From: Branchiostoma floridae
Taxonomy: Eukaryota; Chordata; Leptocardii; Amphioxiformes; Branchiostomatidae
Length of the DNA stretch: 64,000 bases
NCBI RefSeq assembly: GCF_000003815.2
Contig: NC_049980.1
Coordinates: 24,423,808-24,487,807, forward strand
Direction of reading: 5' to 3'
Made by a program: the position numbers and the translations under genes. The notes under the pieces are model-generated. The model ran no database searches and was not told where the DNA came from. It saw nothing but the letters and a program-made list of their open reading frames with translations. Within the stretch, counting starts at the first letter, position 1. Every line of letters starts with the position of its first letter. This document shows positions 1,242 to 60,200 of this stretch, one piece after another.

Positions 1242-4104
1242 AGGTATAAAGTGACTTTTATCTATCATATAACTCAAGAAACAGAAACATCCATATTCAC
1301 CTTGGCTGATGACCATGTGGTCCCACTCTGCCTTACAGCGCGGGCAGCGGGGCTGGTCCTTGTCTCGGAAGTACCGGTTGGCACAGAAGTAGTGCATCTT
1401 AGCCTCACAGGTGTCAGACTGGCAGAGTTGGCCCTGACAAAATATTTTAATGGGTAAGAAACTGCACTGACTAGAATGAAGAATGGAGCTGCAAAATCAA
1501 ACTACTCATACATACAAACCAACATACATTAACCTCCCCCTTTAACAGAAGCAAACAATATGTGTCCTTAATGAGAGTTAAGGATTTCTACACTCTTTCC
1601 TGCTGTGGGTAGAAAGTCATACTTGCACAGCATCAATGTAAAGGTAGTTCGAGAAAGCAGGTGAAACCACTCGGTGAAACAAACAGCAGACCATACATTT
1701 ACACTTTATTTACCTGCCCAAACACCAATGTGGTACAACCTTTCTGTGTAACATCTAGGCAGAACACAGTACAGACAGACATCCTTTTTTCCATGAACTG
1801 TATCTGAGTGGAACTTGCTACCTGTAGAGATGGTGACTGCCCCATCCCTGGAATCCTTCAGGGATAAGGTGTCATCTGCACTAACACTTCAGGGCTCGAA
1901 ATACTTTTTTCTGTCTACCTGCACTGGTGCAGGTAGCTTTTGAAATTACCTGCACCAGAGAAATTTTACCTGCACTATTCAAAAATAATCAAAAAGTAGA
2001 TAAAACAACCCACACTTTATACACATATTTACTACCTTCTTTACTAACAAAATAGGTATACCGGTATTTACGGATTTTATTATGAAAAATCACACTTCAT
2101 TTGACATCTTTATTATTTATTGCATCTCTTTTTTGCAGAATAACAATAAGTACAGCAAAGTGAAAACTACTTTTCAATAATACATGGTGCATAACTTGGT
2201 GCAGGTTAGGTGCAGGTAGACATCAGAAATACCTGCACAGCAAAAAAATCACCTGCACTAATGTGCATATGCAGGTAGTATTTCGAGCCCTGCACTTACA
2301 GTAGACCCCCAATTTCAAGACCTACCATTACCTGGAACTTCAAAGACAAACTCATTTACGTGTCATTACAAAGTCATTTTACGTGTGGCAGAAACATAAA
2401 CAAGATGATGGTGGCCACCTAACACAAAGAAGAACATCAGCTACCAACCTTAAGAGCTATCTGCTCACACAGACAGCACTGCCTGATGTCCTCCTTGTAG
2501 TGATCTGTCAGGTAAGGCTTCAGCTCCAGGATACCTCGCACACTCAGAGAGATCTCACCTTGGTGCTGGGGACAAGGACGAAATGTGTGGCTTTTAATTT
2601 TCAATTCTTAAAAACATACAATTGGATATGATCTCAATTGAATCAATAGTTTACAGGAACCTACTATGATAACAAAAAATGTTTGTGTGTAGATTCAACG
2701 TACAATGTACAAAGGAATTTTTACAAGTATGAAATAAATAAATAAAATACATGTACAATGATCAGTGTCAAAGATTTCAACCCTTTCTAGTAGTATGTAA
2801 GTCAAACAACAACAGGCCAGAGTTTAAAAGCTTGCTAATTACTAATGTACCAGGCAAGCCACTTTATGTTGGATAATGCAATTTCAGTCTCCAGTACCAG
2901 TAATGAGAAAGTTATATCCCAAAATACTTAAAAATACTTCTTGCCACAGTGTTGACTACATGAAACTCACCTCGTTCAGCCACCTGTCTCGGACCATCCT
3001 CCTGATGACATCCTCTGCCTCCTTCTTCCTCATCTTCCTGTTCTGTTCCTCGTACAGCTGGTCTGTCAGGTTCAGGACGTCTGTTGAAGAGGCCACGCCT
3101 GTGTCCGAGTCAACTATCAGATCCAGCACCTTCTTGAAGAACTCCAGTTCTGTCTCCGTGTAGTCTGAGGCCAGACGGGTGATGTCACTCTCCATCATGT
3201 TCACCTGGAAATGGACACACAATCTTTCTCACTCCACATGACAAGATCAGAAGGCTAAATGAATGCTACAGATTAATGTGAACAGTAATGACAATGACAA
3301 CTTAATTNNNNNNNNNNNNNNNNNNNNNNNNNNNNNNNNNNNNNNNNNNNNNNNNNNNNNNNNNNNNNNNNNNNNNNNNNNNNNNNNNNNNNNNNNNNNN
3401 NNNNNNNNNNNNNNNNNNNNNNNNNNNNNNNNNNNNNNNNNNNNNNNNNNNNNNNNNNNNNNNNNNNNNNNNNNNNNNNNNNNNNNNNNNNNGCATTAAA
3501 TCTCTCTGCCGCAGTCATTGAGAGCATGTTCTTGATTTTCAGCATTAAATCTGTCATATTAAGCTTTAAAAAATTTTTTCTACAGTTTCATGTCATGAGG
3601 TTCGAATATTTCTGAGGGACTGATGAGAAGTTTCATTCTCCCTGCAAGTTTAACACAAAATTTGCAACTGAAACAGAAACAGTGACTTTCAAATGCTGCC
3701 TTTATTTTACTGTACTACTTTTCTGTAGCACCTACCAGTGCATAATACTGCACCCCATCCTCTTCTGACACACCCTTCTGTATCATCATGGAGAAGGGGC
3801 CCACATGGTGGTTGATTTCGTTCACAAACTTTCCCAGATTGTCATGTTCCAAAGGTCCTGGAAAAGAATAACAATGCTAAACAAGATGCAAATCAACAAT
3901 CAGCAAATCCTTCCTTTCGAATAAAAATGGCAGAAAACAAATGACAGTAGTGAGGTACAAGTATCACAATGTACAGTATAACTCACTGCGGAAGGTCTCA
4001 CAACACTTCTTGTACAGTGCCTTGACCTCGCGTGCCTTCAGCGCCCCGTGGGTCATAATGGACTGGAGGAACATGCGGTGGGCATCAGTCATAGCAGTTG
4101 CCAT
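447..4104 (-). CDS. NSMCE1: NSMCE1: RING-like ubiquitin ligase subunit of the SMC5/6 complex
   Basis: NSE1 pairs with a MAGE-family NSE3 subunit in the nuclear SMC5/6 complex, which acts in recombination repair. Coding exons in transcript order are 4104-3987, 3857-3736, 3204-2971, 2565-2449, 1433-1301 and 502-447, giving 259 aa (human NSE1 is about 266). Phases agree at every junction. The first exon encodes an MTDAHRMFLQ segment like the human N-terminus. The third carries ELEFFKKVLDLIVDSDTG and ASSTDVLNL, both close to human. The RING-like domain has CCLC, a C-x4-C pair, MHYFC and CPRC; the second pair is two residues wider than the human C-x2-C. An acceptor-like AG before 4122 implies a 5' UTR exon upstream. 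The last exon (18 residues, basic) is the least certain part and has a tandem NAGNAG acceptor (502 or 499). The gene lies head-to-head with DDX24. Confidence 0.9.
801..822 (+). promoter_or_regulatory. Tandem YY1-like motifs in a CpG-rich stretch
   Basis: AAAATGGCGGG and AAAATGGCGGC lie back to back. The AAnATGGCGGC form is the known YY1 motif often found at transcription starts. The surroundings (about 530-1050) are CpG-richer than the flanks. A 61-codon open frame starts at 804 but resembles nothing I know. No start of a known gene is expected here, because the site falls in the last NSMCE1 intron. Confidence 0.35.
1797..1889 (+). mobile_element. Fragment of a non-LTR retrotransposon ORF2 C-terminus
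   Basis: In the plus frame this reads TVSEWNLLPVEMVTAPSLES and continues FRDKVSSAL. It matches the WNxLP...APSLxxF pattern found at the C-terminal end of CR1/L2/Jockey-like polyproteins. It is a short decayed relic with a stop just upstream. A DNA transposon (1890-2292) appears to have landed directly after it. Confidence 0.6.
1890..2292. mobile_element. Short non-autonomous DNA transposon (hAT-like ends)
   Basis: The element begins CAGGGCTCGAAATAC and ends with its perfect 15-base inverse complement. CACTT flanks both sides (1885-1889 and 2293-2297), consistent with a 5-base target duplication. Inside each end are several copies of TACCTGCAC or its complement, as in transposase-binding subterminal repeats. 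It has no transposase. CAGGG...CCCTG ends recall hAT elements, but an 8-base duplication would be expected for hAT, so the family is uncertain. It lies in NSMCE1 intron 4. Confidence 0.75.
3308..3492. other. Assembly gap (run of N)
   Basis: There are 185 consecutive N inside the NSMCE1 intron between coding exons 2 and 3. Apparent open frames across it are artefacts. The exons on either side join in phase, so no coding exon needs to be missing. Confidence 0.99.
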
Positions 4105-8200: not shown

Positions 8201-11200
8201 CTGCAATGTCTGTGACTGAGTGTACTGAAGTTGTCTTGGAAAGAAAGGTTTAAACTTTGGCTAAGAATATTGATACTATTCTATTATCTTGTTCATGTCC
8301 AATTCCATTTCTATTGTCCTTGTCTCTGTTAGCAGGGCTAGCCCTTTGTAAAAGCCACAGGCTGTGTGTGCTGAACAGCCAAGTCAATAAATGAATAGAT
8401 AAACTTTGCCTGGGAGCCCTGACCCCTTATGTGTGTTGCAGAGCCATCCCCACCTGAGTGACCTGAACCAGCTGCAGTGCCTGGTGATTGACGAGGCTGA
8501 CAGGATGGTGGAGAAGGGACACTTCGCAGAGCTGGGCAATCTGCTGGACAAGATCAATGGGTGAGGACATGTTACCTCTCTTAATAACTGCTGAATCAAG
8601 ACTCTAAGTCATCTTAACATTCTTCCTGCTGCCTAACCCATAGACAAGAGAGAACTATTAGCTACTTCAGTACCTACTTCCAAATGGCTACTTCAGCATG
8701 CCGAAGCTTAAAATTAAAAAAAATAGAATCTGTTTCTTTTACATTTGAAGTGTTCATTCTTTTTGACATATTGTATCTCCATATGTTTGTGTAGGGAAGG
8801 CAGAAACCTTAGAAGGCAGACATTTGTCTTCTCTGCCACACTTACCATGGTGCACTCTGGGCCACAGAGGAAGATAATGAAGAAAAAGTTTAAGATGGAC
8901 AAAGATAAGAAACTTGGTAAGGATGGATAAACTTGAGGTTAGACTATCTGGTGTTGAAGTCTGGACTGGAGTCTTGCAACAGACTGTGCATTGAAGCGTG
9001 TTCATCTGTGCTTGATGGGTGTGATTAGTGGCAAACCTTGTACCATCATGTATTGGAAGAAGTCTAGGCCTCACATGAATGATGTAAATGAAGTGTATTG
9101 AATCCTTCATAGATCATGGAGGTATTATATTAGCTTAGGTTTTTTGAGTCTGAGATATAAAGATATATTGATGTAAGAACATGTAAACTCATTGCTGTAT
9201 TTTCAAAGACGACAAAGTACCCATGTTGTTCCAGGTCAGCTGATGGACAGAGTAGGCATCAGGAGTAAACCCTTAGTGGTGGACCTGAGTCGACAGCAGG
9301 GGACGGTGGACACACTGACTGAGGCCAGGATAACCTGTTCTACAGAGGAAAAGGTACAACAGGGTTTTCAACAACTGTTTAACAATCACCTGTCTACTGT
9401 CACTCAAACATGGCTCAAGATATTTGGCCTACAGTTAGTTGAGAGCCGTTGTAACTCTGCACTTTGTTCTTCCAGGATATCTACCTGTACTACTTCCTGC
9501 TGCAGTACCCGGGCAGGACGCTAGTCTTTGCCAACAGCATTGACTGTATCCGTAGGCTGACGTCTCTCCTGGGGTTGCTGCAGAAGAGCCCCCTACCTCT
9601 CCATGCAAACATGCACCAGAAACAGAGGCTGAAGAATCTGGAGAGGTCAGCTTGAATTTTGAATAAAGTGGAGGACTGGAACAAATTTAGGAAAAGAAGA
9701 ACTTAACGGTAGAATTAGGCTGTCTAAGCATTTGTAGGGTTAAATGACAGGTGCATCTTGAATTGTATAATAGGCAATATCCACTGCAAAAAAGATTGAC
9801 ACATCTACATGATCTTGTAGGTTCTCAGCCAATGAGAATGGTCTGCTCCTGGCGACTGATGTGGCAGCTCGAGGGTTGGACATCCCTGATGTGCAGCATG
9901 TCATTCACTACCAGGTTCCTCGCACTTCAGAGGTAATGTGTGTCATGTACAGTTCTACACAATCTTTGAGTATGGATTCATTACCCTAGAACGTGCTGAG
10001 CTGGAGCTGGGCAGCTGGTCTCGGGGCTATAATTAGGGCAATGTTTCATGTGCAAAGTAAATCAACCCAAGGAAACAGTACTCGTGTGTGTTTGTTTATT
10101 ACTCTATGACCACTATAACATTGTATGACTTAAGTGTTTTGGAAAGTTGCAGATTTGATACTGACCAACAGAAATGAAAGTTTTAGAGCAATCTGCCTTA
10201 AGACAAGAGCTAACAATGGTTGTTTCTCCCCCCCATATAGACGTATGTACACCGCAGTGGGCGTACTGCACGTGCCCAGAAGGAAGGGCTGACGCTCCTC
10301 CTGACTGGGCCGGAGGATGCCCAGTACTACAAGAGGATCTGTAAGACTCTCGGCAAAGGTCAGGCACTCTTGAGCAGTTTTCTTTGTCCCTATTGTTTGA
10401 CTTTGACTTTGACTTTATTCAGATCCACTTTTAGCTATTACAACATTATGCCAGCTATTCTTCCAGTGGTCTACATAAAATACATTAATACACGCACAAC
10501 ATAACATACATACAAACATAATATGTACATTGCAAACTATACACCTGAGAGAAAAACAAGTTCATTTAGTAACTGTGTTCCTGTGGCAAGCCGTTCGGTA
10601 GAGGAAGCACTTCCTTTCTGCATTGGTGCTAGGTTTTGACAGTTTGATTTAGTTTGTTGTTGTTGACCGTGTTTGGTACCGACTGTTGGTTGACTGGAAT
10701 GTGAGTTGGTTGTACAGTGGTTTTGGTAGTCCTGTGTGCACTATCCTGCAGAATGTGGCAAAACTTCTTTGTTGTATTCTTTCCTTTACTGGTGACCAAC
10801 CCAAGATGTGTAACCTTGTTGCACTGTCCGTCTTGTTATCACATCCAAGGGCAAACCTTGCTGCTCTGTTTTGTACCACTTGGAGACGTTTGATGTTCTT
10901 GGCTGTTGTGTTTCCCCACACTGGAGAACAATAATCCAAGTGAGAGAGTACCAGGGTTTGTGCCAGGTCCTTCCTTATCCTAGGAGGTAGTTTGTTTCTT
11001 ATCCTGTTCAGTTGACACATGCTTGAGTTACACTTCTTCACTTTGTTAGTGATGTGAACGTCCCAAGTCAGGTACTGATCCACATACACTCCTAGTAGCT
11101 TTGCGGCTGGGACCTGTTCTAACTGTTGTCCCCTGAGCTCTAGTTGTAGTGGTGGAGCCTTCCCTGCTCGCTTGGCTGTTCCAACTAGCAGCGGATTTTG

Positions 11201-12825
11201 TTTTGCCATTGTTCAACTTAAGCAAGTTGTGATCAGACCATTATTGTGACTTATTATGTAACAGTAACACCTTTTATACTTGTATTTGTTGCCGGTTTCA
11301 ATTTTGTTTGTTTATGTATGTTATTGCTGGAAAATAGAATGCTCCTTTGTGTTGAATATCATTGAAACTATGTAGGTATATCAAGGTGCAAGATAAAACC
11401 ATTCTGAGCAGGCCCTACCTTCACTACTGGTCTTTTGTCACTGTCATAAATGAAGAACTGAAGACTTTTTTATGAGAAAATGTATGGAATATCTGTTTGC
11501 TAAAACCGCGGGTTTTCTGTTCTGTTCCAGACGAGGACCTGCCAGTGTTCCCCACGGAGCCCCAGCACCTGGCTGCAGTGAAGGCCAGGGTTGCAGCAGG
11601 GCGCAGGATTGACGTGGAAGAACATCGCTATATGAAGAAGAAACATCACAATGATTGGTTCTTACAGCAGGTCGGAAGGCTATTGACCTTGACTTCAGCA
11701 ACAATTCGTAACCTACACTTAGAAAAAAAATAACAGAGTAGTCTGAGTTCTCCATTTTTGCATTGGTAAGCTAATCACCAATCAAATACTAGTACAAATG
11801 TAACATGTTTAGGTTAGCTTCAATTAGATTAAACATGTGACTTACTTAAACTAAGTTAAAGCTTCTTATCCTTAGCCTTCACTCCTAACTTTACTGTTCC
11901 AGGCCAAAGAGATGGACATAGAGCTGGATGAAGACGAGGTCCTACATGACCTTGGAGACACACAGGAGCAGGATAAGGTCCTTAGTGAGCTCAAGGACAT
12001 GAAAAGTAAGTGCTTAGGCCTGTCAACAAATGTGAACACTGCTGTCTGTGTCATTATATCAAGCCTGGAAGATATAATGATGTGCAATCTTTTCATTACT
12101 GTATGAAGGGATTATTCCTAGGGCAAATTGTACAAGATATGACACAATAATTTCATTTATGAATTTTTTCAGGTTTCTAGTTATTACGTTGATCTTTTTT
12201 TTAGTACATCTGTGGTTTTGCTGAAGCTGTTTTGGATTGTTTGTTCTTCCCCTGCACAGAGAGCCTGAGTAAGATGCTGAAGGCCCCAATCTTTCCCAAA
12301 GGCTTCTCAGGGCTCTACCCCATCCAGTATGGTCAGCCCAACCTCCCAAGGCTTCCCAGTATGTAACTCTACTTGTTCATGTTCATGATAGCTTGTTGTG
12401 TACAGTTGATGAGTTGACTGCGTATTGGACCCCAACATCTTCTACCTGGACCTCCTAGAAGTTAATAAGATGGCCGTGGCCTGGCTGCAGTACTGACAAG
12501 GAATGATATGATGATCTGTGACACTGTATTTGTGTGAAAGTCAGAGAGACCTTCTCTCTTTTATCCACACTATTTATATTATGCTGCTATCAGTGAGTGC
12601 TCAATCATGGCACAAATTCTTATGGACAAGTGAACATGTAGAATCAGATCCAATACTACATACTTACATGGCTGTGACTTTGTAGTACAATGTAGTAAGT
12701 TCTGCTGGTTTTCAACTTCCATAGTACATTGTATTTTCATTTAATACACATCTTTTTCCCACCCAGATGCTGTAGCAGCCACCCTTGCAGTGAACAACAG
12801 TCGCAAGAAGAAACACAAACCTTAA
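5199..12825 (+). CDS. DDX24: DDX24: DEAD-box ATP-dependent RNA helicase
   Basis: DDX24 is a nuclear/nucleolar RNA helicase linked to ribosome biogenesis. Sixteen exons join in phase: 5199-5270, 5827-6571, 6765-6913, 7059-7283, 7449-7655, 7941-8051, 8442-8560, 8795-8916, 9235-9353, 9476-9645, 9821-9932, 10241-10358, 11531-11670, 11903-12005, 12260-12358 and 12767-12825. The product is 889 aa (human about 859). The N-terminus has the family stretch around LEELTDYEL, then a long Lys-rich tail. Helicase motifs are intact: Q (PTPIQ), I (AAETGSGKT, split by an intron), Ia (PTRELAVQ), TPGR, II (DEAD, about 520), III (SAT), IV (LVFANS), V ([12 protein letters not shown]) and VI (HRSGRTAR). An acidic insert at about 340-397 separates motifs I and Ia, where human DDX24 also has a long insert. 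The ATG at 5199 was chosen because the frame upstream offers only a GTG. The C-terminus ends RKKKHKP. Confidence 0.95.
10396..11215 (-). mobile_element. 5'-truncated CR1/L2-like retrotransposon in DDX24 intron 12
   Basis: A minus-strand open frame at 10649-11209 (186 codons) encodes the end of a non-LTR reverse transcriptase and its C-terminal region: [16 protein letters not shown], then [12 protein letters not shown] and VQNRAARF. Downstream, near 10396-10416, a short TTTGAC repeat on the plus strand looks like the element's 3' terminal repeat. The catalytic part of the reverse transcriptase is missing, so it is a dead 5'-truncated copy lying antisense to DDX24. The frame is nearly intact, which suggests a fairly recent insertion. 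The right boundary is approximate. Confidence 0.8.
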
Positions 12826-18400: not shown

Positions 18401-21400
18401 CTCCAAACGTGAACCCGCCAGTACTGGCTGTCGTCGTCCCTGCTCCAAACGACAACCCACCACTGGGGGTGGTGCTGGCTGCAGTTGTTCCTGCACCAAA
18501 CTGGAGACCACCACTGGTGGCGGTGCTTGGAGCAGATTCTGCACCTCCACTGCCAAACTTGAACCCTGGAGAGGTCATACCAAAGACAGTTTTGCTTTAT
18601 TAAAGCCTCATAAAGGTTTCGTCTGTGCAGAACTAATCGTACTAACAACATGTACAACCAAAGGCAAAAACTGTGATGGAAAATTGTATATACCTGAAAA
18701 TGTGGGTTTGGAATCTGTCGCTGTTTCAGTTGAGGCAGGTTTTGGTGCCCCAAACTGGAACCCTCCAGTACTGCTTCCAAAGGAGGCCGTTTTCCCTGTT
18801 GATGTTGACTGGGAGCCAAACTGGAACCCCCCTGTTCCTGAAGATGATTGGGCACTGCCCGGCTTCGGTGTTTCACAGGCGAGGCATTTTGTCGCATCCT
18901 TGTCATTCTGGACCATACAGGTTTCACACTCCCATTTGGACTGCTGTGCAGATATTGCTGCTGCCAGGCCTGAACTGTTCGTACCTAGGGAAAAACCACC
19001 ACTCCCACTTGCACCGACTGCTGGGGTAGACTTGTTTTGGCTACCAGGCTTGGGCGTTTCACATGCTGCACATTTAGTCTTGTCGTCGGTGTTGTACACT
19101 AAACAAGTCTGGCATTCCCACTTCTGTCCGTTATTAGCTGCTGCTAACAGTGACCCAGATGAACTTGAAGTCGACTTGAAAGCACTTGATGTCCCAAAGT
19201 TCACAGCAGGTGTAGATGCAGCTGTTTTAGACTCACTGCCAGGTTTAGGGGACTCACATGCAGCACATTTTGTTGACTCGTTCTTGTTTTCTACAAGACA
19301 AGTATCACAGGTCCATTTATTTCCTGATGCTGCCTTTGACCATATAGATTTACTAGCATCTTGTGTATTAGCATTAGTGGATACAAAGTCTGTGGTGCCT
19401 TTCTTCAAGCCACCCAAAGTGTTGGAGTCCTGTTCAGATGCAGCGGTAGAAGCACTACTACTCCCAAACGTGAAACCAGAGCTGGTAGAGTTCACAGCGC
19501 TTCCAGATCCAAACTTAAATCCACTGTTAGCGCTGCCTCCCTCCGCTGTGGTGCCCAGTTTAAAACCATTGGTTTTGGGGGCTGCATCAGTACCAAAACT
19601 GACAGGGGGAACTGTATGGGAAGATATGACAGCATTTGCATGGTCACAAAGGAGATAAAAACTAACATACTGGCTGCAAGAGAATTTCTACCTCTTTTAA
19701 AATAGTCTCAAACCCATTTTTCACATCATTCATGTTACATTGAAAAAATGCTAATGCACATCTATTTACTGTCATCATTAGGCGAATTGCACAACTCTAT
19801 GTTATCATGAGTAATCCTTCTTTGTACCTCATTGAAACAAAGCCAAAATGAGACAAAATGACATTACGTACTATTGTACCACATACTGAAGGATGGGCGA
19901 AGAAGTATTAACAGGAACAAAACCAGAGAAGCACAGACACTTACCAGTGGTGGGCACGGTTAGCTTAGGCTGGCTCCCAGGCTTGGGGGTGTCACAGGCC
20001 ACACACCGGCTGGCTGCAGCTGTGTTCTGCACCATGCAGGTGTCACAGTCCCAGCCACCTGACGGCTTCTTGAACTGGTCCCCCAGAGAGGGTAATGATG
20101 CAGTCTGGGAATAAGGGATCAAATCTTGTATACAGAGACCTGGCCATTTAATAAAATACATTCAAAACTGTCCGAGAAGACGACCCAGCATACCAATAAA
20201 ATATGGACAGGTGGTCACTATAGACAGGATCCTTAATTTTTGTGTCAACAGAACAAGATCTTCGTGATCACCAAAAACGTGGTCACTTCTACAGGTTTGA
20301 CTGACACATGCCTGAGAGGCCCATATTTATTACAAACACCAGAAATTACAACAATATCATTCAAAGGAACCAACCTTTGTGTTAGCTGCAGCAGATCCCT
20401 CCCCAGTGGTTTTCCTTTCCTCGAGTTTTTCTTTTGTTGTTTCTGGCTTACTAACCAGTGGCCCTCCTTTCAGTGCATCGAGCACACTGCCTGACTTGAG
20501 TGGCAGAGGCTCTGCCTTCAGGGCATCCAGGACGCTGCCTTGCTTCAGAGGTGGTGGAGAGGCTGCGGCACTGGGGCTAACAACGGGCTCTGGTGCCTTC
20601 CGCTTGGGCTGGAAGCCCGACCCTGCACCAGTCGTCAGGAAGGTAGAACTGCCCGCAGAGACTGCTGAGGATGTGCCCAACCCCTGACTGGGGAAGGACT
20701 TGCCTGGAGATGCAGGCTGGCTGAACTGGAATTTGGGCTGTAAAGAATATGTAAAGAAAATGTGTGTTTAGGACTGTAAAAATACTTGACACAAGGGAAA
20801 GAGAACTTGAAAAGACAGCAGCTTGTCTTACTTAACCTCCACAAACATTAAGCCCAATTTCCCTATCCCTGTAAGAAGTTTTACCCTATTTCACACTTTT
20901 CTTTACCTTTAGCCACCATCATATCTTCCACCTGGTTAATCGCGGTTATTACATCACAATAATATATCTTGCAACAGTTTATATCAGAAACACAGTCCTA
21001 CTCACTGTTTCAGTATTGCTAACTGCTGGGGTGCTGTCCTCTGGGCTGGACATGACTATGGGAGATGCGAAGGTGAACTGGGGTGATGACGTCACACTGC
21101 TCACCTGTGGGGTGGTGCTGACCTTTGAACCCTCGCTCAGGGGTTTGGATGGCGCAGGAGAGAAGTCAAACTTGGGGAGGCTGGCTATTGGGAGGGCAAT
21201 CTCTGGTAGGACTGGTACCTCAACCTTGTGTGGAAAAAGGAAAGCAGTGGCTTTAAGTTAGGATCACACCAACAATGGACCTTTCAAAAACTCTGGCACA
21301 TTGGAACTGGTTGGTAGACATTTTTATACACGTATGTGAATTTCATAACTTTACTATGTACATTGTTTAACGGCCTGATCAACCTAGCCCTATAGCCTAA

Positions 21401-24400: not shown

Positions 24401-25683
24401 AGCATTAAAATTGGAAATATTCTGGATAAGACAAATGGTGCAATATTGACCTTCACTTCACCATACTACCACATTTGTATCATTATTTTGTAAAAAAAAA
24501 TAAATAAAAAATTGAATTTGAAAAAATGAGATTCAAGGCCAAAAAATTACATTGGGTGGCACCATGCATTTAATTCAGTGCAGGATGGAAACACACAGAA
24601 AACAGTTTGAACTGCAGGACTTTTGTTCCCAGAGAATTGAAGTGGGGAAATCATACCTTGTACAGATGGATCCTGGTGATGCGTCAGTCTATTTTTTGTG
24701 ACACGAACTGGAGGTACCTCTGTCTCTTCCTCCTCCTCCTCTTCGTCCAGTCCATTCTGATCTTCCCGCACATGCACCACAGGAACATGGGCAGGTTTTC
24801 CTCTTGTGTTCGGCCTCTCTGTCAGTGTGGTGGGCTGTGCACCACTCTCATCCTGTCTCCACATACCTTTCAGCCATGATGGCGTCAGGTACTCCGTCAC
24901 ACTGCTTAATATGGACTGCAAGGAAAGAACGCAATAAAACCAGAATCAGTCATGTGCTCATCCATGCACAAAATTTGGACACCACCCAAGAGCAAGCCTA
25001 TTTGTACTTTCAACCATAGCTGTTGACCACACATAACGTTAAACTTCATGTAACGTTACACATAGCGTTAAACTTCATGTTCACTTGGTTAAAAAGTTGC
25101 GTGTACATGATTTGTTGAGAAGTATCTGTACATCTGATCCATACCAGCGTTTTATTAAAACAAGCTTTCAAAAATTTGCATTTTTCTAAAGTTACCCTTG
25201 GCCTTGAAAATGGAATGGTCCATAAATTTTGATAAAATTCAGCACTTGTCCAAAGTGAACTTAATTATTACAAGTTTGAGATAAAGATCATGATATTATT
25301 GAATATCAATTTAGTGGAATTCCACGCTTGTTATGACGTCTGATACCATAATTTCTATTTCATGCGTAGTTAACGGCAGAGTTGCTGCATACATGACGAA
25401 AAATGATGTCCAAACGATTCCGGCACAAAATTATGTTCAGTCCTTTTGACACATTCACCGCTAAATTAGCCATATACTGCGTGCATGTAAAAATACCACC
25501 ATGTCCACGATACCCCGTTACCTTGACTCCTGGCTACCTGTGAGATTTTTATCATCCCAGGCTGCACATGCCTGTCGGCGCCCTCCCCAGTCCCATGCCT
25601 ACCTTTCTCCCGCCGGATCTTGCGTATGGCTTCGGCGCGTGTGACCGCCGGCTACGAGCCTTCCCAGCACCGGAGGTCGCCAT
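15486..25683 (-). CDS. NUP153: NUP153: nuclear pore basket nucleoporin
   Basis: Nup153 sits on the nuclear basket, binds Ran through zinc fingers and transport receptors through FG repeats. Nineteen exons in transcript order: 25683-25603, 24915-24657, 24343-24191, 23733-23614, 23275-23151, 22901-22773, 22584-22396, 22116-21925, 21724-21473, 21224-21006, 20737-20375, 20104-19945, 19611-18694, 18565-18179, 17914-17813, 17482-17110, 16873-16614, 16289-16103 and 15591-15486. All phases agree; the product is 1524 aa (human 1475). A basic N-terminus is followed by the SILSSVTEYLTPSWLKGMW segment, SPFYEGRTTYGGA, QRILHTLERMS...DAKRIPS, PPVQRL...SIATNR and GGKIRRER, each matching a human Nup153 stretch. 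Four RanBP2-type zinc fingers (W-x-C-x2-C...C-x2-C, ending PKPG) start near residue 711; the other three share exon 13. Then come GFxFG repeats and the basic end IKKAQRRKR. An ATG 54 bases upstream is in frame; MATSGAG was preferred by similarity to human MASGAG. Confidence 0.95.
23370..23600 (-). mobile_element. 3' end of a CR1-like retrotransposon in a NUP153 intron
   Basis: On the minus strand, 23584-23462 reads RTIVGWNMLSPSTVGVSSLD and continues SFKEHL...LGMTGRSV to a stop. This is the typical C-terminal end of CR1/L2-like polyproteins. The following 90 bases look like its 3' UTR. It lies in the same orientation as NUP153, between exons 4 and 5. It is inert. Confidence 0.65.
23766..24059. 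repeat. Possible short DNA element with an internal palindromic core
   Basis: AGTGCTGC at 23766-23773 is repeated inverted at 24052-24059. The flanks ATTACAAGT and ATTACATTT match at 7 of 9 bases. Near its right end it holds GTCCGGACCTGAACCTGA (24018-24035), which recurs exactly inside the element at 37302-37735. This suggests the two are related. The ends are short, so the boundaries are tentative. Confidence 0.4.
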
Positions 25684-25870: not shown

Positions 25871-26487
25871 CTGTCACAATCGGTTGGTGCGTCATCTAGC
25901 GGTAGACTTCAAATTGCAGTCAAGTCAACATTGATGATCACCCAGACATTTGTAGTCATATGAAAATGCAGTAGAACATGGCCAGACATAGGGTAAATTC
26001 TTTGCCAGGGGAGTTAACTGGCAACAGAAGTAGCAGCTAGTCAATACTATTGTTCCAGATACAAACAGAGCTCTCTCTAACCAAGGAGTCTTTCTCCAAC
26101 TAATCTCCAAGCAGATCCTATGGTGCCATATTAAAGATACAAAGCTGGCATATGCTACTTTAGGATCTGCTTGGAGATTGGCCCTAACCTGCTTGCCTTG
26201 GTAATAACAATGACCTTATATAACGTCATTGCTAATAAGTAATGTTACTGTCATGAGTTGGATCAAGGAGGTTAACGGTTATATCCTATATAACCTCCTT
26301 GGTTGGATTGAATAACCAAAGGCTCTAAAAATTCACGAATAAATAAATGAGGAAAAAATACCAGTCAGTAATTTGGTAAAGCAGTGACTTTATTGATCAT
26401 CTCAACAAAAGTCATATCTTTTTGTTGGTCAGTTCCAAATATATTCTGCCTTGCTTTTACAGTAGTCTCTACCAAAGTAGTCCCAGC
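25871..26487. repeat. Spacer with a 19-base perfect inverted repeat
   Basis: AATCTCCAAGCAGATCCTA (26102-26120) and its exact inverse complement (26161-26179) flank a 40-base loop, like a MITE or foldback element. A smaller hairpin with CAAGGAGGTTA arms lies at 26264-26301. The rest is spacer and TMEM14C 3' flank; I see no gene. Confidence 0.6.
26389..26394 (-). terminator. TMEM14C: TMEM14C poly(A) signal
   Basis: AATAAA on the minus strand, 94 bases past the TMEM14C stop codon. Confidence 0.65.
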
Positions 26488-27762
26488 TCAGTTGGAGATG
26501 GCCCTGTACCCAAACCTGGCCACCATCAGGAGACTCAGCCCTGCCACCAGGCCTGCAGGCATGAACTTCCCAGAGTTGATGAACCTTGAACCCATCACAG
26601 CAGTCAGTACTCCAGAAGTTCCTGAGGAATGGAGAAAAAAAGGCAGAGTGTTTATATCTCATTTACTTCATATTGAACAATGACCAGTGTGAGGAAAAAG
26701 GATCAACACTTCCTGAAGATGCATGGTTGTATTTAGTCATCATCAACATAATCAGTCCTTTTCATCATGACGGATGCTCCGTTCATCGCCGACAAGGCCA
26801 GCTAGACTTCTGCAGGGCTTTCCACGTGTCTCACAACAATTTTATTGTTTGACATGGTTCATGTCTCTTCCTTCTTCTGTATTTATTATTTAGTATGACA
26901 AATCATACATATGATATAATCAAATTAGTTACCCTGTAGACAGAGTACACCACCTTTGTTTCCCAACCCCCAACAAAAACAGCATAAGGTACCAGTATAG
27001 TATATATCAGTGCACCTGTATGTCTATAATGTTGTTACCTTACCCAGAGACAGCAGGTAGTTGTTGGGGTTGACAGATGTCTGGTATGCTCCCACACCCA
27101 TCAGTCCCCCAAACACCAGGCCTGCTCCCAGCGACATGACACTGCCTGGACAGCACATGGGACAGAAGAGAAGTATGTAGATCACATGTAATAATCCACT
27201 GGGTGCTACATGTATGTAGATTTGTTCTATCAATCTATGACCAAGTAATTAAAGAAATGATTGAGTCATTCCAATACTGTCTAGTACTATCAATATTCAA
27301 TTAGGAAATACCAACCATCGCATTGAATCTGCTTTCTAAATCTAATCAAACATTTTCATTTAAGAAAAAGATTCATCACAGCTTATTCACTTGATTGAAA
27401 GTGCTGGTAATGACATACATGTAGCATATCAGTCATGATAGTCAGCTAAAGTAATGCCTTACCTTAATTTACTTTATACTATAGGCATGCACTTAACCTT
27501 CTCGATCTACCCACACTTACCTGCCCTTACATATCCCGAGATCCCACCTGCAGCAACAGCGACTGCATATCCGATGGAGATGAAGTCAGTCATGGTGATC
27601 AGCTGGCACTTCTACGACGGGCTCAAACCTGTGTAAGATTGTAATGTTATACTGGGGAATGTAATTCGTAAGGAGACACACTAACTCACCTTTCCTTACA
27701 TAGCCTAGGATCCCACCCGCAGCCACAACAAGTGCAAACCCAATGGAGACAAAGTCAGTCAT
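26488..27762 (-). CDS. TMEM14C: TMEM14C-like small mitochondrial membrane protein
   Basis: TMEM14 proteins are small multi-span membrane proteins; TMEM14C of the mitochondrial inner membrane supports porphyrin import in erythroid heme synthesis. The model uses exon 1A (27762-27690), exon 2 (27145-27044) and exon 3 (26621-26488), giving 102 aa; vertebrate TMEM14A/C have about 99-112. Exon 1A encodes a hydrophobic helix with [10 protein letters not shown], exon 2 [17 protein letters not shown], and exon 3 [20 protein letters not shown]. These match the human VASGGIIGYV, SLAAGLLFGSLAGLGAY and [20 protein letters not shown] stretches. A second copy of the first coding exon (1B) lies 62 bases downstream and can replace 1A in phase. 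Assignment to 14C rather than 14A is by overall similarity. The gene is divergent to PPP1R8. Confidence 0.88.
27521..27628 (-). CDS. TMEM14C: TMEM14C alternative first coding exon 1B
   Basis: This exon duplicates exon 1A (27690-27804). From the ATG at 27593 to the donor after 27521 it encodes 24 residues plus one base, exactly as 1A does. Eighteen of 24 residues are identical, including MTDF and AVAAGGI versus VVAAGGI. Both copies keep a GT donor and an upstream acceptor-like CAG before a short leader resembling the other's (TGAGCCC). Six of the shared residues use different codons, so the copy is old and the protein sequence appears conserved. Splicing 1A to 1B would hit a TAG after five codons, which predicts mutually exclusive use. 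Confidence 0.75.
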
Positions 27763-27804
27763 GGTGATCACCTTTGCCTGGTACTCTCACAACAGGGCTC
27801 ACAC

Positions 27805-28442
27805 CTGTATGAATAGTGTGGATTAGTGGTGAGACCAGGAGGTATTTTGCTATTTAAAGGGTCAATGTTGTTAGTTGTGCGAGTCTTTCTCGATCAATAC
27901 TTGTTCGTGACCTAGGAATATTTCTCACACAAAGTATATGTTATACCTGGGATAATATTCAGAATTGACACAGACAAACTTTCACACCTTCAGTTACATA
28001 TGGTTAACGTTAACTGGAACAATACAGTTTAACGTTACTATGACGGTTGCAATCTTGTTTTTCAGCTCTGAGTTACTGACTTAGTATTGTTGCTGTTGTT
28101 AACACACAAACAGATAAAATTAATATGAAAAACAATCAAAAATTCACAAAAATTGCAGCAGACCCCACCACTCCCCCTTCCCTCACCTCACAGATGGGAA
28201 AACTATCCCAACATGCAACACGACACATGTTTATCTGCCTCTACCGCAGTAAAATGAAAATGTACTGAAGATACTGAAAGTTCTCTTTTCGACAGTAAAC
28301 AGCTCAAATAACTTAGCAATATGGGCTCTGTATTAATTTATAACGACAGTACCTTTTGTTCTGACATGATATGCTTATGTTGACTACATGAGGGAAAGTG
28401 TCATTGCCGTCGTTGCGTTTGTAATTAGGTTCACTGAGCAAA
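27805..28442. promoter_or_regulatory. Divergent promoter interval between TMEM14C and PPP1R8
   Basis: The start codons of TMEM14C exon 1A and PPP1R8 are 681 bases apart on opposite strands. Because both TMEM14C first coding exons follow acceptor-like sites, a noncoding 5' exon of TMEM14C should lie here. AAAATGGCGTC at 28440-28450 overlaps the PPP1R8 ATG and resembles a YY1 site. No coding exon is visible. Confidence 0.5.
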
Positions 28443-31400
28443 ATGGCGTCGGAAAAAAGCCAGAAACGAGAGAAGCAGCAGAGTAGAGCGGAGCCCGACC
28501 CTCTTCTGCCTCCACCTTTCGATGTGCCGTCCTGGTAAGTCGTAACTTGATTATTGACAAGAACATCATAGTTAACCAGGAAAACTTCTGTTCGCAGATG
28601 CGCGGTGACGGGACGTATTTCTCTTTCGAATGTTGGCTCAACAAAAACACCACATTTGCCGCGCATAAAAATGATACACACATGCACATGTGTACGTGGT
28701 GCAACAGCTCGGAGACTTTGGACAATGGCTTTACGTCTTCACTGCCTCTTCAGGGCTTCAAGCTTCAAGATAAATCATTAGTCTTTTAGCAAAGTCCAAA
28801 CCACAGGACTGTTGCGTGCCCAAGCTTGTTGCCCTTCACCAAATTATCTTCACTCCGTGATCAACCACAGCATGCCATGATAATCACCTTACCTGCACGC
28901 ACGTAGGGCACGTCTGCCTCTTGTTTGTTATTTCATAAATACGCAATATTATTTCTATGTTTGTATCATCTATTTGTATGCAGAGAGTTAACATTTAGAT
29001 GAAGCCCATCTATGATATGCATGTTGGAATTTAACAGTTTCTCGAGTCTACTCTTAGTCTAATGAAGTTTGGCATACATGTGTTCATGAGACCTACTCTA
29101 CTCATTATTTATCATGGAGGGTTCACAACATAATTTACTGTATTACATGCTCCAGGGCTGGGAAACCTCCAGCAGGGCTCCACTTAGATGTCATCAAAGG
29201 AGACAAGATGATAGAGGTGAGTTTTTGCAAGAGCATATAATTATTGTTACAAATGTAGCATATTCAGGAAATTACATTTTTTTCAATTCAGAAGGTCCCA
29301 CGTCAGAGTGGGTTTGTGAATACTAGTAATCTTGGTACATAATTTTATATATTGTTGTCGCAAAAAAAAGGCAGAGATATGTTTTTCTTTGAAGGAACTT
29401 TTTACATAGATCTTTATTTCTCAATTTCTTCTTATTTCAGAAACTGATCATTGACGAGAAGAAGTACTACCTTTTCGGGAGGAACTCCAAGATGTGTGAC
29501 TTCTGTATTGATCACCAGTCCTGCTCCAGATGCCATGCAGCCTTGGTCTGGCACAAGCACCTCAACAGAGCTTTTCTCATAGACTTGAACAGCAGTGAGT
29601 ATATATTCTAGCCTGGTAGCACATTTTTCTTTATTACACTGCAGAGATGAGATGAGTACACTGTCAGTTTCCACTTAAGCTTCCTGATGGTTTTTCTGTT
29701 TAATTTCACCAGAGGAAATGTCACTCATTTGTGTTACAACCCCAGGATATCAACATCAAATGAAATCAGCAATTCAAGAAATTTATTCATTCATTTCATG
29801 GCTGGGTAGAGGTCATAGTAATCTTCATAATTTTCTTTCTGCACCATTCTAGACAAATTCTGCTACATATTCTGTGTTCTCTGTAATATATAAATCTGTT
29901 ACTTTAGAACTGTTGTTACATTACACATTTTACACACTTTCCAGCACACGGTACCCACATTGGTAACATCCGCCTGGAGCCAAGCAAACCCCAGCAAGTT
30001 CCCCTGGACTCTGTCCTGAGGTTTGGAGCCTCCACTCGGACCTACGTCCTGCGTGAGAAGCCACAGACAGTCACTACTGTAAAGTCAGACGACACAGAAA
30101 CAGTTGGAGAGGAAGAGATTTCCACAGGATTGCTGGGGCTACCGGAAGAGGAGACGGAATTGGATGTAAATTACTTGCATCTTACATGTTACATATATAA
30201 CTACTGTATATGCATAGTGAGAGATACTGGTATTACAAAGTGTCATTTCTTCAGGTACAGATTGCAAAATATCTTTTAACTGCATCATAACATTTGATAC
30301 CAACTTTTCTAGTGAGCAAAGTGCAGTGTTTATTACTTCAATTGTCAACACTGTCTCAGAGACTTTCCGCTGTTTTATCGTTGAAGCAACATGCTATCTT
30401 GTGATAAAGAGAGTACCTTGCAACATATTAAGCATATTCTTTTCTTTTGTATATTTTATCATTTAAATGCAGAACTTGACAGAATTCAACACAGCCCATA
30501 ACAAGAGAATCACAGTATACAGTGTGGAAGAGCCCAACCTAGAAGTCACTCCCTCTCCCATCAAGAGAAAGAGAAAAAGCATGCAGTCAGTCAGATTCAT
30601 GGATGATGAAGAGGTTATTAACCCAGAGGACGTTGACCCCAGTGTGGGCAGGTTCAGAAACTTGGTATCCACAGAGGTTATTCCAGTCAAGGTGAGTGGG
30701 AAACTTAACATCTTAGTGGGTGCAAGATTTAGTTCAATTGCCTGTTTCATCGGTTCATAATAGCATGATAAAGGTAATAGAAATCATGCGTACTGTATCT
30801 TTTTTAAAAAGTGGCTTTTGAGAGGGGAAGTGTTAGATTACTACCAGCTCCTTGCTGTCTGAACCAATGCAAATTTGGTGTCAGCAGGATTCTAATAGAA
30901 GGCTTGATGCATTGTAAGGAAGACAGTTCTCTGAATAAGGAGGGAAGGATTAATGCATTTATACCAAATCATCATAAAGGAACCTGTGGCTAACAAAATG
31001 TTATATCCTACAGAAAAGGAAAGCAGAAGACATCCCCACTTCACCAGATTCCATGGCCAAACGTATGCAGCAATTCTACACACCAGGTATGTGTGGGCTC
31101 AGTCTGTTATAGTTTAAGCACTGTCTTCTGACATAATGTGTGCTCTTTCATTGTTTCCTAGGAGCAAAAGGACAACTTATCAAAGACATGTCCAGTAATT
31201 GGTTTTGTACTCATTTGACCTATGTTTCTCAAAGTTTGATTTGATGTCATTGTAATTATGATGCAAAATGTACAGACACAAAAATCATGCATTAGAAATT
31301 TGAATTGGAAACTAGCCATGATTTACACTTGAAAACTATCAGAAACTGGCCTCGATTGAAAGTCAGTTTGTTTCTTAATGATAATTTCAACTGCGAAACT

Positions 31401-48200: not shown

Positions 48201-51200
48201 GATCAACGTGGACCAGTCCATCTCCCTGCTGCTCAACTGGCTCATGAGCGCGTACGACCCGGAGGCGCTCGCCAAGATGTCGGTGTTCTCCATCAAGATG
48301 GCGCTGTCCACCATGTGTGCAGGGAAGCTGGTGGACAAACTCAGATGTGAGGATCTTGCTGTTCTTGTTGATATGAACTTCCTGCTTTAGAAAGTGTAGT
48401 GTGTCCTGAAACAACACTCACTATCCTGTTTAGCATCTGTTCTTCCCTGTCTTGCCGAGGTTGGACGTGTCGCCAAGACGTTTTATGAACTTCCTGCTTT
48501 AGAAAGTGTAGTGTGTCCTTGAAACAACAATCTTATGACCTTGATGAGAAAGTTTAAAACCTTTTGTACAGTGGAAGGAATCTGATATAAATAATGGAAT
48601 GCAATTTAGAAGGCTACATTTTAGAAAACACATTCTATAGCAAAAGACTCTAGGATATGACACTTTGGTACAAGCCCAACAAGTATGAGGAATAAGAAGA
48701 GCATTTTTCTTTGCAAAAAGGATTGCGGTTTTGTAATGGCAGCATCACCAATGTATCCAGAAAGTTTTTGTAATTTTTTTTTGTAATCACCGTTCTAATT
48801 TACCCTGTGTTCCATAACATAAAACTACATGTACATCATTTATCACATCTTCTTCAGATATCTTCTCACAGATCTCGGACTCACGAGGACAGCTGGTGTA
48901 CCCCAAGTTTGACCAGTTCCTACAGGAAGCCCTGGCCCTGCCGTCAGCCGTGTACGAGGGGCCCAGCTTCGGCTACAACGAGACAGCAGCCAAGTCATGC
49001 TTCCAATCGGCCCAGGTACAAGACCCTGAAGTTAGTCACTCTTTTCTTATCTATTCATAGGCAGTAGATGGGTGAATGCCGGATGTCCCATCCCTAACCA
49101 GAGGTAATGTAACAAACAGGCCTTGAAATACCACTTCCTTTCATGCATCATTACCATAGGTAATTTGATGAATGCTCATGCCATGGCTGTCACAAAAATG
49201 ATTGTCTAAATTTGAAAAAAAATGTTTCTCCAAATCATGGATCATCAGCTGATCTATTGTTGTACGATATGACACAATTTTGTGGGTAGCTACATGAAGC
49301 CCTCCTACAAAGTTGTGTCCCTCTGGCTATCTATACACGTGTTTACAGTTTTGTGCAGTAAAAGTATTTCAAGGCCGAATTTAGCCTATAACAACCACCC
49401 TGGCTCTTTTTAACAAAGCATACACATCACGTATATATTACATATATAACCAAATAATGAGTTAATTCACACCCTTAATTGCTTCCCAACCTCACACAAG
49501 TGTAACCAACCCCATAATGCACATGTACTAGAAACCACATAGTCACTGAGTCTGCATTATTTCTCGTTGCATGTGCATGACAACAACTTTTTTCCTTCAT
49601 GCATCACCACTCATTAGACATCAATAGTATTTCCATCTCAGATATGAATGGTGATTTAACTCTTGTTTGAATGCTGTATGACTGTGAAATGAATAAAAAC
49701 AGAATGAAAACCTGAAAACTTCCTTTTTTTGTATCAATATGTTTGTAGACAGCATTAGTATACCAAATAATAGTTATCCAAGTAAAGCTAAGGGCACAAC
49801 CCACTGTACGTGCAATTTGTCCGTACGTTTTTTTGGAGGCCATGTCTGCCACATATTTCTGAAACGTTCAGGCTGTACAGGGCAGGCGCGTTGCCCGTAC
49901 TGGCAGGTACGTGGGGTGAATCCACAGCCCAATGGCACACAAAGTTTTGCCTGCACGTAAAGTTCTACAGCGTGTCTGCGTGCTCCAAAATCCGTCAAAT
50001 TCCCCACGAGTTTGTAGGTAGGCAGTACTTACCACTTATGTTTTGGCACGTAGACAGCACATATTTGCATGTACGGCGGGATATGCCCTTAGCTTTACTG
50101 GATATGATTTTTTTCAAATTTCAGACAGTATTTGCTGTCTGTGTGACATTGGATGATGTCTGAAAAGTCTGACTGTTTTCCAAATCAGTAACTTTTGTTC
50201 TTCATTTTTACTGGTGAAGACTTGTGTGAGGAAAGGAAGGTAACAGTTCTCTGCCTTTCACACAGTAGCTATTTATTTAAAGCTGAAATATGGCATTGGG
50301 CTAAAACTGCAATTTGTAAAAAAACGAATAGGCAGTCAATGAAAACAGGCTCAGAGAGTTAGAGAATAGAAATAAGGTTTTCTGAACCCTGGACTGTATC
50401 GAGAATGAACTTGAATGTGCTGATAGGAAACTTTCTTTCTTCTCCTTCAGCGTGTGACCATCAATGACTTCCTGGATGTGATGATGGCAGACCCTGGCCC
50501 CCCCTGCCTGGTGTGGCTGCCTCTCATGCATCGGATGGCCAATGTGGAGAATGGTAGGGACTTCCCTTATGTTATAATTTTTTTTTATATACTGTAAAGA
50601 TAGACAAGGCCTTTATAATAATACAGACTCACCATTCCCATGGTATGGTATGTTACAACTTACATAATGTACCATGAGAATAGTGACTCTGCTAGATTTT
50701 GTTTCTTGTTTCAAGTACATTCTAACATTTTGTTTTTGTCGTTATTTTTGTTGTTGTTGTACGTAGTATATATGTTGGACCATTTTATACCTTTACGACT
50801 AGCAATTTTCAATTAGTTTTTACATTAATGACGGTCAGACCAGATACATTGTTTGTAACAGCACCCTATCCCTTTATGCCTTCATGAGATAAATGTACTG
50901 TAGTGTTGCTACCCTTTACCATACCCTTTCACTAGCTACTTACATGAATGTTTGAAACTTTTGAAAAAAATTATCTTTAGTAAGCGAAAATTGCTTGGTC
51001 TCTACTGTAGTTTTCCACCCAGTGGAATGTGCATACTGCCAACGGGAGTCCATGATGGGGTTCCGGTACAAGTGCCAACGGTGTTTCAACTACCAGCTGT
51101 GTCAGAACTGCTTCTGGCGCGGCTACACCAGCGGGAACCACACCACGGACCACGAGATGAAGGAGTACTCATCCTGGGTTAGTCAGATATCCAGCCATTT

Positions 51201-57200: not shown

Positions 57201-60200
57201 CACTTCCACTTCCAATGTACGTGTATACGGTTTTGCATTTTGCATAATACCTCGATGTACACATGTATCCAAGAAGGTTGCACCTGTTGTGCAATGTCTT
57301 GTGGTACTTTAAGTACTTGATTCCAAATTCAAGGTTAAAATCAGCAGCTCTTAATGTCTTTGGTAAGTCAGACACAACTTTCTCAATGAAGATGTGGAGC
57401 CCTCTCCCCCTTCAACAGCCAGCAGTAACATAAATGCTGAGAATGACTCCCACCCCCTCCCTAAATGTGAGTGAAGATTGCCTTGATCGTGATGATATTT
57501 CACTATCTCTCGGCACTTTGTGTTGAAAAAAATAATCCAAAAAGAGTGACCAGTCCTGTTTCTATGTGTGGAGCCCTGAAAGAAATGTGTGACCACTTTA
57601 AGTATCAAGTACTGGTAATGTGTCCAAATACATAAATCGCTGCAAAAGGAGGGGTCATAGTTTTCTGACACCGTCTTCTTGCTGACTCCTGCTATTTTCC
57701 AAGAGCACATGGGTAGAAAAGCCTTCTGCAGGAAGAAGGCTCAAACTTGTAATCAACCCTAGTGAGGAGGTCAGAAGCAATGGCAGTGCAGCCACACTAG
57801 CCATGTGCAGTTGGCTAGACTAATGTTATACCTATTACTTGTGAGTTCAACTTAAAGATGCCTTTGACATGCAATGTGCAGCTGGCTTTCAGCAGCCAAG
57901 TCAGTATACAATGTTAACATGCCAAAATAATCAAAGAAGCGGATGCAAAATCCATAGGTCTGTGAAAAAATGAATTGTCCTCCCAGCCCTATTGGTTGGG
58001 TGTTAGGATCATAAGGAAAATCTGTGTCTGGTTGCCTGTGTTCGTACAGGGAGATCATGCGCGAGATCCAGCGCCTGCGGCAGGAACACGACGAGGCGTC
58101 ACGGGGGATGGACGAGTCACGAAACCCGACACTGCTGGCCGAGCTCAGGCTCCTCAGGTACTCACTGTCATCACAGACTCATCTACATGTAGCTCTGTGT
58201 TGGTTGTTAAGTGCTACAGCATTTTCAGTCCTTGAACTCTTGATCCAGAATGTAGACAAGCCCAAACCTACACTACTTCTTAAAAGTGGTGTAACGTTAG
58301 GTTTGGGCTCTGTAGCCAAAGAATGAAAGCTTTCTGCTTCCAAAAGAATTAAGGCCATAGCATGTCTGGAAAAGATACAAAAATCTGATGTGCTGCTGTA
58401 GTGCCAAAGCAGACTGCCAGGAGGCCCATAGTCAACCTTGACCTTTGTCTTCCCAAGACCCCAGGGATCAATTCTGGGACCCTTATTGTTTTTAATATAT
58501 GTTAATGATCTTGCTGAAGCATCCAAAATATTCTTTTTTATCCTATTTGCTGATGATACAAATCTCTTCCTCTCACATGCAGACTATGATTCGTTAATAC
58601 GTCTAACCAATCAGGAATTAGAAAAAGTCATCACATGGTTCGAAACCAACAAGCTATCTGTTAATATTAAAAAGACGTACTATCTTATCTTTTGTAGTAA
58701 AAACAAGACTTATGATAAGAAAAATACCAATATCTTCCTAAAGAACCTTCCTCTCTCCCAAGAATGCCAGGCTAAGTTCCTAGGAGTACTTATTGATGAT
58801 CGGCTAACATGGAAACCCCACATTGCTATGATATTAAATAAAATTTCAAAAACTATCGGGATCATAGGGAAAATTAGACATATTTTATCCCAGAGAACCT
58901 TGATAACCATATATAACAGTCTAATCTATCCATATCTCATTTATTGTAATATTGTTTGGGGAAACGCCTACAAAACTTCTCTACACCCTTTATTAATTCT
59001 ACAGAAAAAATTTCTACGCATTGCGACATGTTCGAGTTTCTATACTCACTCTTCACCACTATTTGAGAAACTTAGAATTTTGAATATCTATGACGTTAAC
59101 AGATTTTAGCTTGCTCTATTCACAGCCCAACACATAAACCATACTCTCCCCGAGACCTTTGACAGCTTTCTTAATTTTCGCTCGCAGTTTCACAATTATC
59201 AAACTCGCCAAAGCACAAATCTGCACATCCCCCTATTCAGAACCTCTCTTGCCCAAATGTCTGTTAAATACAAGTGTGTTAAAATATGGAACGATCTTCC
59301 CCCCTCCCTTAAGAATCTTACCTCCTCTCTCCTGACTTTTAAACGTAATCTGAAAATCCATCTGTTAATCCATCCGAGCCCCCTGTAGTAGCCACAGTTT
59401 TTTTTAAATCATATTATCTTAATTCATTCCATTATTTGATCATCCTTATTGCACTATTATCATTTTCTAAGTATTATGCTGATTTATTATTTATTGTTAA
59501 GTCAAATCATTAATTACATGGTTTTCCTTATTGCATCATTATCATTTTCTACATATTACGTTACTTTATCATTCATTGTTAATTCATACCATTAATTACT
59601 TGTTTATCCTTATTGTATCATTATTATTCTATGTATTACTTTACTTTATTATTATATATCATAATCAATTTTGTTTAGTTTAAAGGAGGAGGGCTAAGTA
59701 TAAGCTTCCCAAGCTTTTTCCCTCCTCCTGCACCTGTTTTATCCATTGTTTTCGTTTTGTGTTTTAATGTAACACTTGTGTGCGAATAAACAAACAAACA
59801 AACAAACCTACCCACATACTAAATATCATCACAATTCATCCAGAAGTTGTGTTTACCACAAATAGTTGGAAGTTCGGACACGCAAAACAGTAACTACCTC
59901 CATTTTTCATTGAGGTGATGAGGAAGATATGTTACAGTCTGAAATTGGTGATTACGTTTTCCTTCATATGTTTGATTTGGTGATTAAGATATAAACTCAG
60001 CTTCTTCTTTGTGTTAAAAATAATATTCTCTGAAAAATGCATGTTATCTTTTAATGCATTCAACTTAGTCGCTCAATGGGGAGAAAGTTGAATCACAACA
60101 ACAGTATTACCCTTGAAGTGATTTTAAGTATGAAGTTGTGTTGTCCCCCAGGCAGAGGAAGGATGAGTTGGAGCTGCGCATGTCGGCTCTGCAGGAGTCT

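Follow-up and report, generated by a model that had tools for sequence, protein, structure and literature searches.

The window, i.e. the whole stretch of 64,000 nucleotides of Branchiostoma floridae DNA analysed here (NC_049980.1, positions 24,423,808 to 24,487,807), contains a TMEM14 gene on its minus strand, which is flanked by a PPP1R8/NIPP1-like gene in head-to-head orientation and, downstream, by a zinc-finger gene. The features of the TMEM14 locus, with positions counted from the first base of the window, are as follows.

28187..28430, minus strand: putative promoter and shared non-coding exon 1 region; best exon-1 donor candidate GAG/GTGAGG, with the intron starting at 28186
27690..27804, minus strand: exon a; 42 nt of 5'UTR, ATG at 27762, helix 1, donor AAG/GTGAGT
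27629..27689, minus strand: intron between the exon copies, 61 nt
27521..27628, minus strand: exon b; 35 nt of 5'UTR, ATG at 27593, helix 1, donor CAG/GTAAGT
27044..27145, minus strand: exon 3, common to both forms, with an in-frame ATG at residue 28
26488..26621, minus strand: exon 4, common to both forms; coding part up to the TGA stop, read directly in the sequence
26389..26394, minus strand: AATAAA polyadenylation-like signal, read directly in the sequence

The PPP1R8/NIPP1-like gene occupies 28431-30180 on the plus strand, and its FHA piece matches 2JPE with an E-value of 3.7e-47. Its ATG and the candidate TMEM14 exon-1 donor are possibly less than 250 bases apart, and a two-way promoter common to the two genes is therefore likely. 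The candidate donor scores 11.1 bits and ranks in the top 0.3% of the GTs on the strand; a second strong donor-like site is found at 28892, inside or behind the start of the neighbouring gene. The shared non-coding exon upstream of a and b is a candidate. Three stretches of RanBP-type zinc fingers were recognised in the minus-strand gene downstream of TMEM14 (18611-19687 and 24550-25682), which has an N-terminal exon resembling NUP153. Between TMEM14 and this gene lies an inverted repeat (26102-26179) with 30-nt arms, 87% complementary, and an 18-nt loop. Elsewhere in the window, an open frame at 58432-59106 (plus strand) matches the RVT_1 reverse transcriptase profile with 39.7 bits and is, judged by this match, a retroelement remnant; a tandem repeat with a spacing of about 82 bases between copies occupies 59419-59653, a 48-base sequence occurs twice within 48372-48532, the copies being 96% similar and separated by 112 bases, and a run of N covers 3308-3492. 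The match of an open frame at 10652-11212 (minus strand) to DUF1539, at 18.8 bits and below the cut-off of 23.8, is probably due to chance.

Joining of either a or b to exons 3 and 4 gives a complete TMEM14 protein of 102 residues. Both spliced proteins are matched by the Pfam profile Tmemb_14 over positions 2-92 of its 92 positions, with 95.0 bits for the a-form and 93.6 bits for the b-form against a cut-off of 24.8. Human TMEM14C (2LOS) aligns to the a- and b-forms with 106.7 and 108.4 bits, respectively, and human TMEM14A (2LOO) with 73.1 and 73.3 bits. A search of the genome (513 Mb in 431 contigs) with the Tmemb_14 profile matched only the TMEM14 locus, at exons 4, 3 and a, with b not listed separately and all six of the six candidates scored. 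A second, TMEM14A-like gene was considered and rejected, as a fragment of human TMEM14A matched only exon 4 of the same locus. Both genome searches score the best candidates exon by exon, so that short or divergent TMEM14 exons elsewhere could escape them; within this scope, the genome apparently holds a single TMEM14 locus. The name TMEM14C, used in the preliminary description of this DNA, agrees with the higher bit scores against TMEM14C than against TMEM14A; it is slightly too narrow for the one locus found, and plain TMEM14 is the safer name.

The preliminary description had drawn attention to two adjacent exons, each carrying a start codon and the first transmembrane helix, ending in the same phase at a GT donor and following a CAG, and its coordinates and anatomy proved to be right. 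Exons a and b are 115 and 108 nt long, respectively, with a coding part of 73 nt in each and the same phase. As had been described, 18 of 24 residues are common to both and many codon differences are silent (12 of the 24 codons differ, six of them silently). At the nucleotide level, 16 of 72 coding bases differ, and the two exons are 80% identical over 90 nt without a gap. Comparison of the window with itself matches 27515-27632 to 27684-27808 with an E-value of 1.8e-16, the similarity extending past the splice sites by only a few bases. This E-value, together with the 80% identity over 90 nt, rules out a chance repeat. An artefact of assembly through collapsed or duplicated haplotypes was judged improbable, on the grounds that the copies are 169 bases apart and differ at 16 of 72 coding bases. 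A 501-base query matched only itself in the genome.

Outside the exons the resemblance is lost. Ungapped identities in the two intronic parts of the duplicated unit are 15/54 and 14/54, i.e. chance level, and the local similarity of these parts was reached by 161 and 496 of 500 shuffles, which is not above random. An alignment with MAFFT brings out one AGTATAA run common to the introns downstream of a and b, which may thus be partly related. Since the similarity ends at the splice sites and the intron flanks are random-like, the tandem duplication of the TMEM14 start-codon exon looks old and both exons look as if they were maintained by selection. Provided that a single event duplicated the whole unit, its neutral sequence would be saturated with changes, and the exons, the UTR ends and the splice sites would not. 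To look for a third exon copy, a and b were compared with the remainder of the gene region. In five of the six comparisons the score was unremarkable, being reached by 18 to 172 of 200 shuffles; the remaining one, exon b against the intron after b, gave a weak similarity whose score was reached by 3 of 200 shuffles, uncorrected for the six comparisons.

The comparison of dN/dS between the copies that the preliminary description had proposed gave, by the Nei-Gojobori method, Ka 0.16 and Ks 0.68, the latter from 19 synonymous sites, and a ratio of 0.23; Fisher's test on the substitutions between a and b, with counts truncated to whole numbers, gave P 0.016. In simulations of drift of both copies, the probability that the frames remained intact and no more than six residues changed was 0.002-0.05, which disfavours neutral drift of both under the mutation model assumed. 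A different possibility is that one copy is unused or decaying and the other alone is spliced in, the intact frame being a leftover. The residue changes taken alone fit a single drifting copy (P 0.11-0.39), and the a copy is the less like the human proteins, agreeing with TMEM14C at 11 of 21 aligned residues as against 13 of 21 for b, and with TMEM14A at 10 of 23 as against 12 of 23. However, the probability that one drifting copy jointly keeps its frame, a donor of at least 12 bits and its AG falls to 0.0001-0.076 over the four distances (0.15 to 0.34) and two start copies simulated, with splice criteria taken from vertebrate weight matrices and mutations drawn under an assumed model, and the introns have reached chance level with both exons still alike. 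Once the splice sites are counted, drift of one copy is unlikely in these simulations, and we consider the disuse of one copy to be correspondingly unlikely.

The AG and the GT are intact at both exons. Scored with weight matrices of vertebrate values, the donors of a and b rank in the top 0.13% and 0.10%, respectively, of the 3917 GTs on the strand, and the acceptors are moderate at best, in the top 5.7% and 12.6% of the 4179 AGs. The intron separating the exons is 61 nt long; the few readable introns nearby are much longer: the one after b measures 375 nt, the one separating exons 3 and 4 measures 422 nt, and in the PPP1R8-like gene the length exceeds 200 nt. Measured from the donor of a, branch-point-like cores occur in the 61-nt intron at 20, 27, 42, 47 and 55 nt. 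The last of these, only 6 nt before exon b, is by its position too close to serve as a branch point, and the TAAC at 42 nt (19 nt before exon b) appears to be the best placed candidate, so that the plausible candidates, identified by motif match, all lie within 47 nt of the donor. A steric threshold of about 50 nt has been described for mutually exclusive exons in mammals (passages of PMC7969005 and PMC5740500), and potential steric interference, at less than 50 bp, is given for 57 human clusters (9%) in the latter. As the plausible branch points at 20-47 nt fall below this mammalian threshold, inclusion of both exons would be discouraged. The early TAG expected from an a-b join was also observed; the joined frame reads MTDF...RKGLSPS and ends at the TAG after 29 codons, before the ATG of b. 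Skipping of both exons would leave the ATG of exon 3 (residue 28), predicting a protein that is devoid of helix 1.

These features are best accounted for by mutually exclusive exons spliced from a common non-coding exon 1, a reading to which we assign a probability of about 0.6. According to this model, an old tandem duplication would have copied the second exon of a single TMEM14 gene, from its 3' splice site and the last part of the 5'UTR through the ATG to helix 1, and both copies would have been retained. The non-coding exon 1 would be joined to either a or b and the chosen copy then to exon 3, the outcome being two 102-residue proteins with six differing positions in the N-terminal helix region. 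Within the 61-nt intron the branch points would lie too near the donor of a for the two splice sites to be used at the same time, and an a-b join, if made, would lead the frame of a into the TAG in the former 5'UTR of b, leaving the mRNA unproductive or decayed. The proposal of the preliminary description that mutually exclusive exons allow one gene to make two proteins is upheld in part, as to the duplication, the intact frames, the same phase, the geometry of the 61-nt intron and the TAG acting as a fail-safe; we infer the use of both exons, as well as exon 1, the branch point, the steric exclusion and any functional difference between the products.

The position of the acceptors bears on whether the choice between a and b is made by splicing. 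In human TMEM14C a 3' splice site lies inside the 5'UTR, where mis-splicing in SF3B1-mutant cells adds 14 bp (PMC5029572), and this site has been dissected by minigene, as noted in a portion of PMC4743009. Given that the duplicated piece includes the acceptor and that the human gene has such a site, the exon was probably an internal one before its duplication, preceded by a non-coding exon 1. A table of PMC5029572 also lists a mutually-exclusive-exon event for human TMEM14C on chr6 in SF3B1-mutant versus healthy samples. Alternatively, transcription rather than splicing could make the choice, with starts just upstream of a yielding the a-form and starts elsewhere the b-form. Duplicated ATG-bearing initial exons mostly reflect multiple promoters, according to an excerpt of PMC3228551; the weak acceptors fit a partial use of a and b as first exons, and a run of TTTAAATAG can be read about 55 nt upstream of exon a. 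Alternative promoters would nevertheless have to be reconciled with an acceptor AG in both copies and a similarity that reaches just beyond it (to 27632 and 27808), with the human 3' splice site occupying the corresponding position of the 5'UTR (PMC5029572) and with the mere 61 nt between a and b, which offer b scant space for a promoter of its own, and we hold them to be distinctly unlikely. That exon a is frequently included along with b and serves as a regulatory upstream frame, whose 29 codons end ahead of the b start codon and reduce output or provoke decay, is very improbable, for although a frame of precisely this kind, with the b start codon after it, results from the join and the donor of a is near-consensus, the helix 1 residues and the exact length kept in a would stay unexplained and the 61-nt intron may be too short for splicing.

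If both exons are used in a mutually exclusive manner, the two proteins would differ at six residues, which from a to b are V5I, F9Y, L11V, V12A, L19S and K24A. Five of the six substitutions are mild and lie within one hydrophobic helix, the mean hydropathy of residues 4-22 being 2.14 in a and 1.59 in b, and charge changes only at position 24. Here the a-form has K and the b-form A; of the human proteins, TMEM14C has A and TMEM14A has R, a parallel that is suggestive only. The five substitutions that fall in helix 1 are not significantly clustered on one helix face (P = 0.074). As the substitutions are mostly conservative and those in the helix show no significant preference for one face, the different mitochondrial targeting or porphyrin handling of the two forms raised in the preliminary description is a guess.

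To our knowledge, it is not settled which parts of the tiny TMEM14C protein decide its substrate, and a natural isoform pair whose sole differences are six residues in the vicinity of helix 1 would constitute a ready-made experiment on TMEM14. TMEM14C is required for the import of protoporphyrinogen IX into the matrix and for heme synthesis in vertebrate erythroid cells (PMC4673221). The duplicated lancelet 3' splice site corresponds to the human 5'UTR site mis-spliced in SF3B1-mutant disease (PMC5029572), which makes for a curious comparison. Among open-licence papers on mutually exclusive exons in amphioxus, tandem exon duplication and TMEM14, no earlier report of the lancelet TMEM14 exons was found; the kind of arrangement is known and its occurrence in lancelet TMEM14 appears to be undescribed so far. 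Taken from its sequence, the tandem exon duplication in TMEM14 is probably functional, with a mutually exclusive geometry.

Humans possess separate TMEM14 genes, whereas one locus with an exon duplication was found in the lancelet. Human TMEM14C (2LOS) and TMEM14A (2LOO) share a family likeness with both lancelet spliced proteins, which are full-length members. The wider proposition that the apparently single lancelet TMEM14 gene, through two exclusive start-codon exons, gives rise to two inner-membrane proteins that differ in their first helix, splicing thus doing what the separate TMEM14 genes do in vertebrates, is rather improbable. Among the known systems, exons 4a/4b of OGDH and the human clusters described in parts of PMC5740500 are alike in having neighbouring homologous exons of the same phase that encode the same segment, with branch points, in TMEM14 candidate ones, lying under about 50 nt away from the upstream exon's donor, and with a double inclusion that is unproductive, in TMEM14 by prediction. 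They differ in that distant branch points have been mapped for OGDH 4a/4b, whereas those of TMEM14 are motif matches, and in that the TMEM14 pair, unlike this type, carries the start codon and the end of the 5'UTR and is exclusive by prediction. The IIIb/IIIc exons of Fgfr in chordates including amphioxus (PMC5703972) resemble the TMEM14 pair in tandem exon duplication and mutually exclusive use; they are, however, internal exons of an extracellular domain with known regulators, in contrast to the start-codon exon of a small membrane protein, for which exclusivity is predicted.
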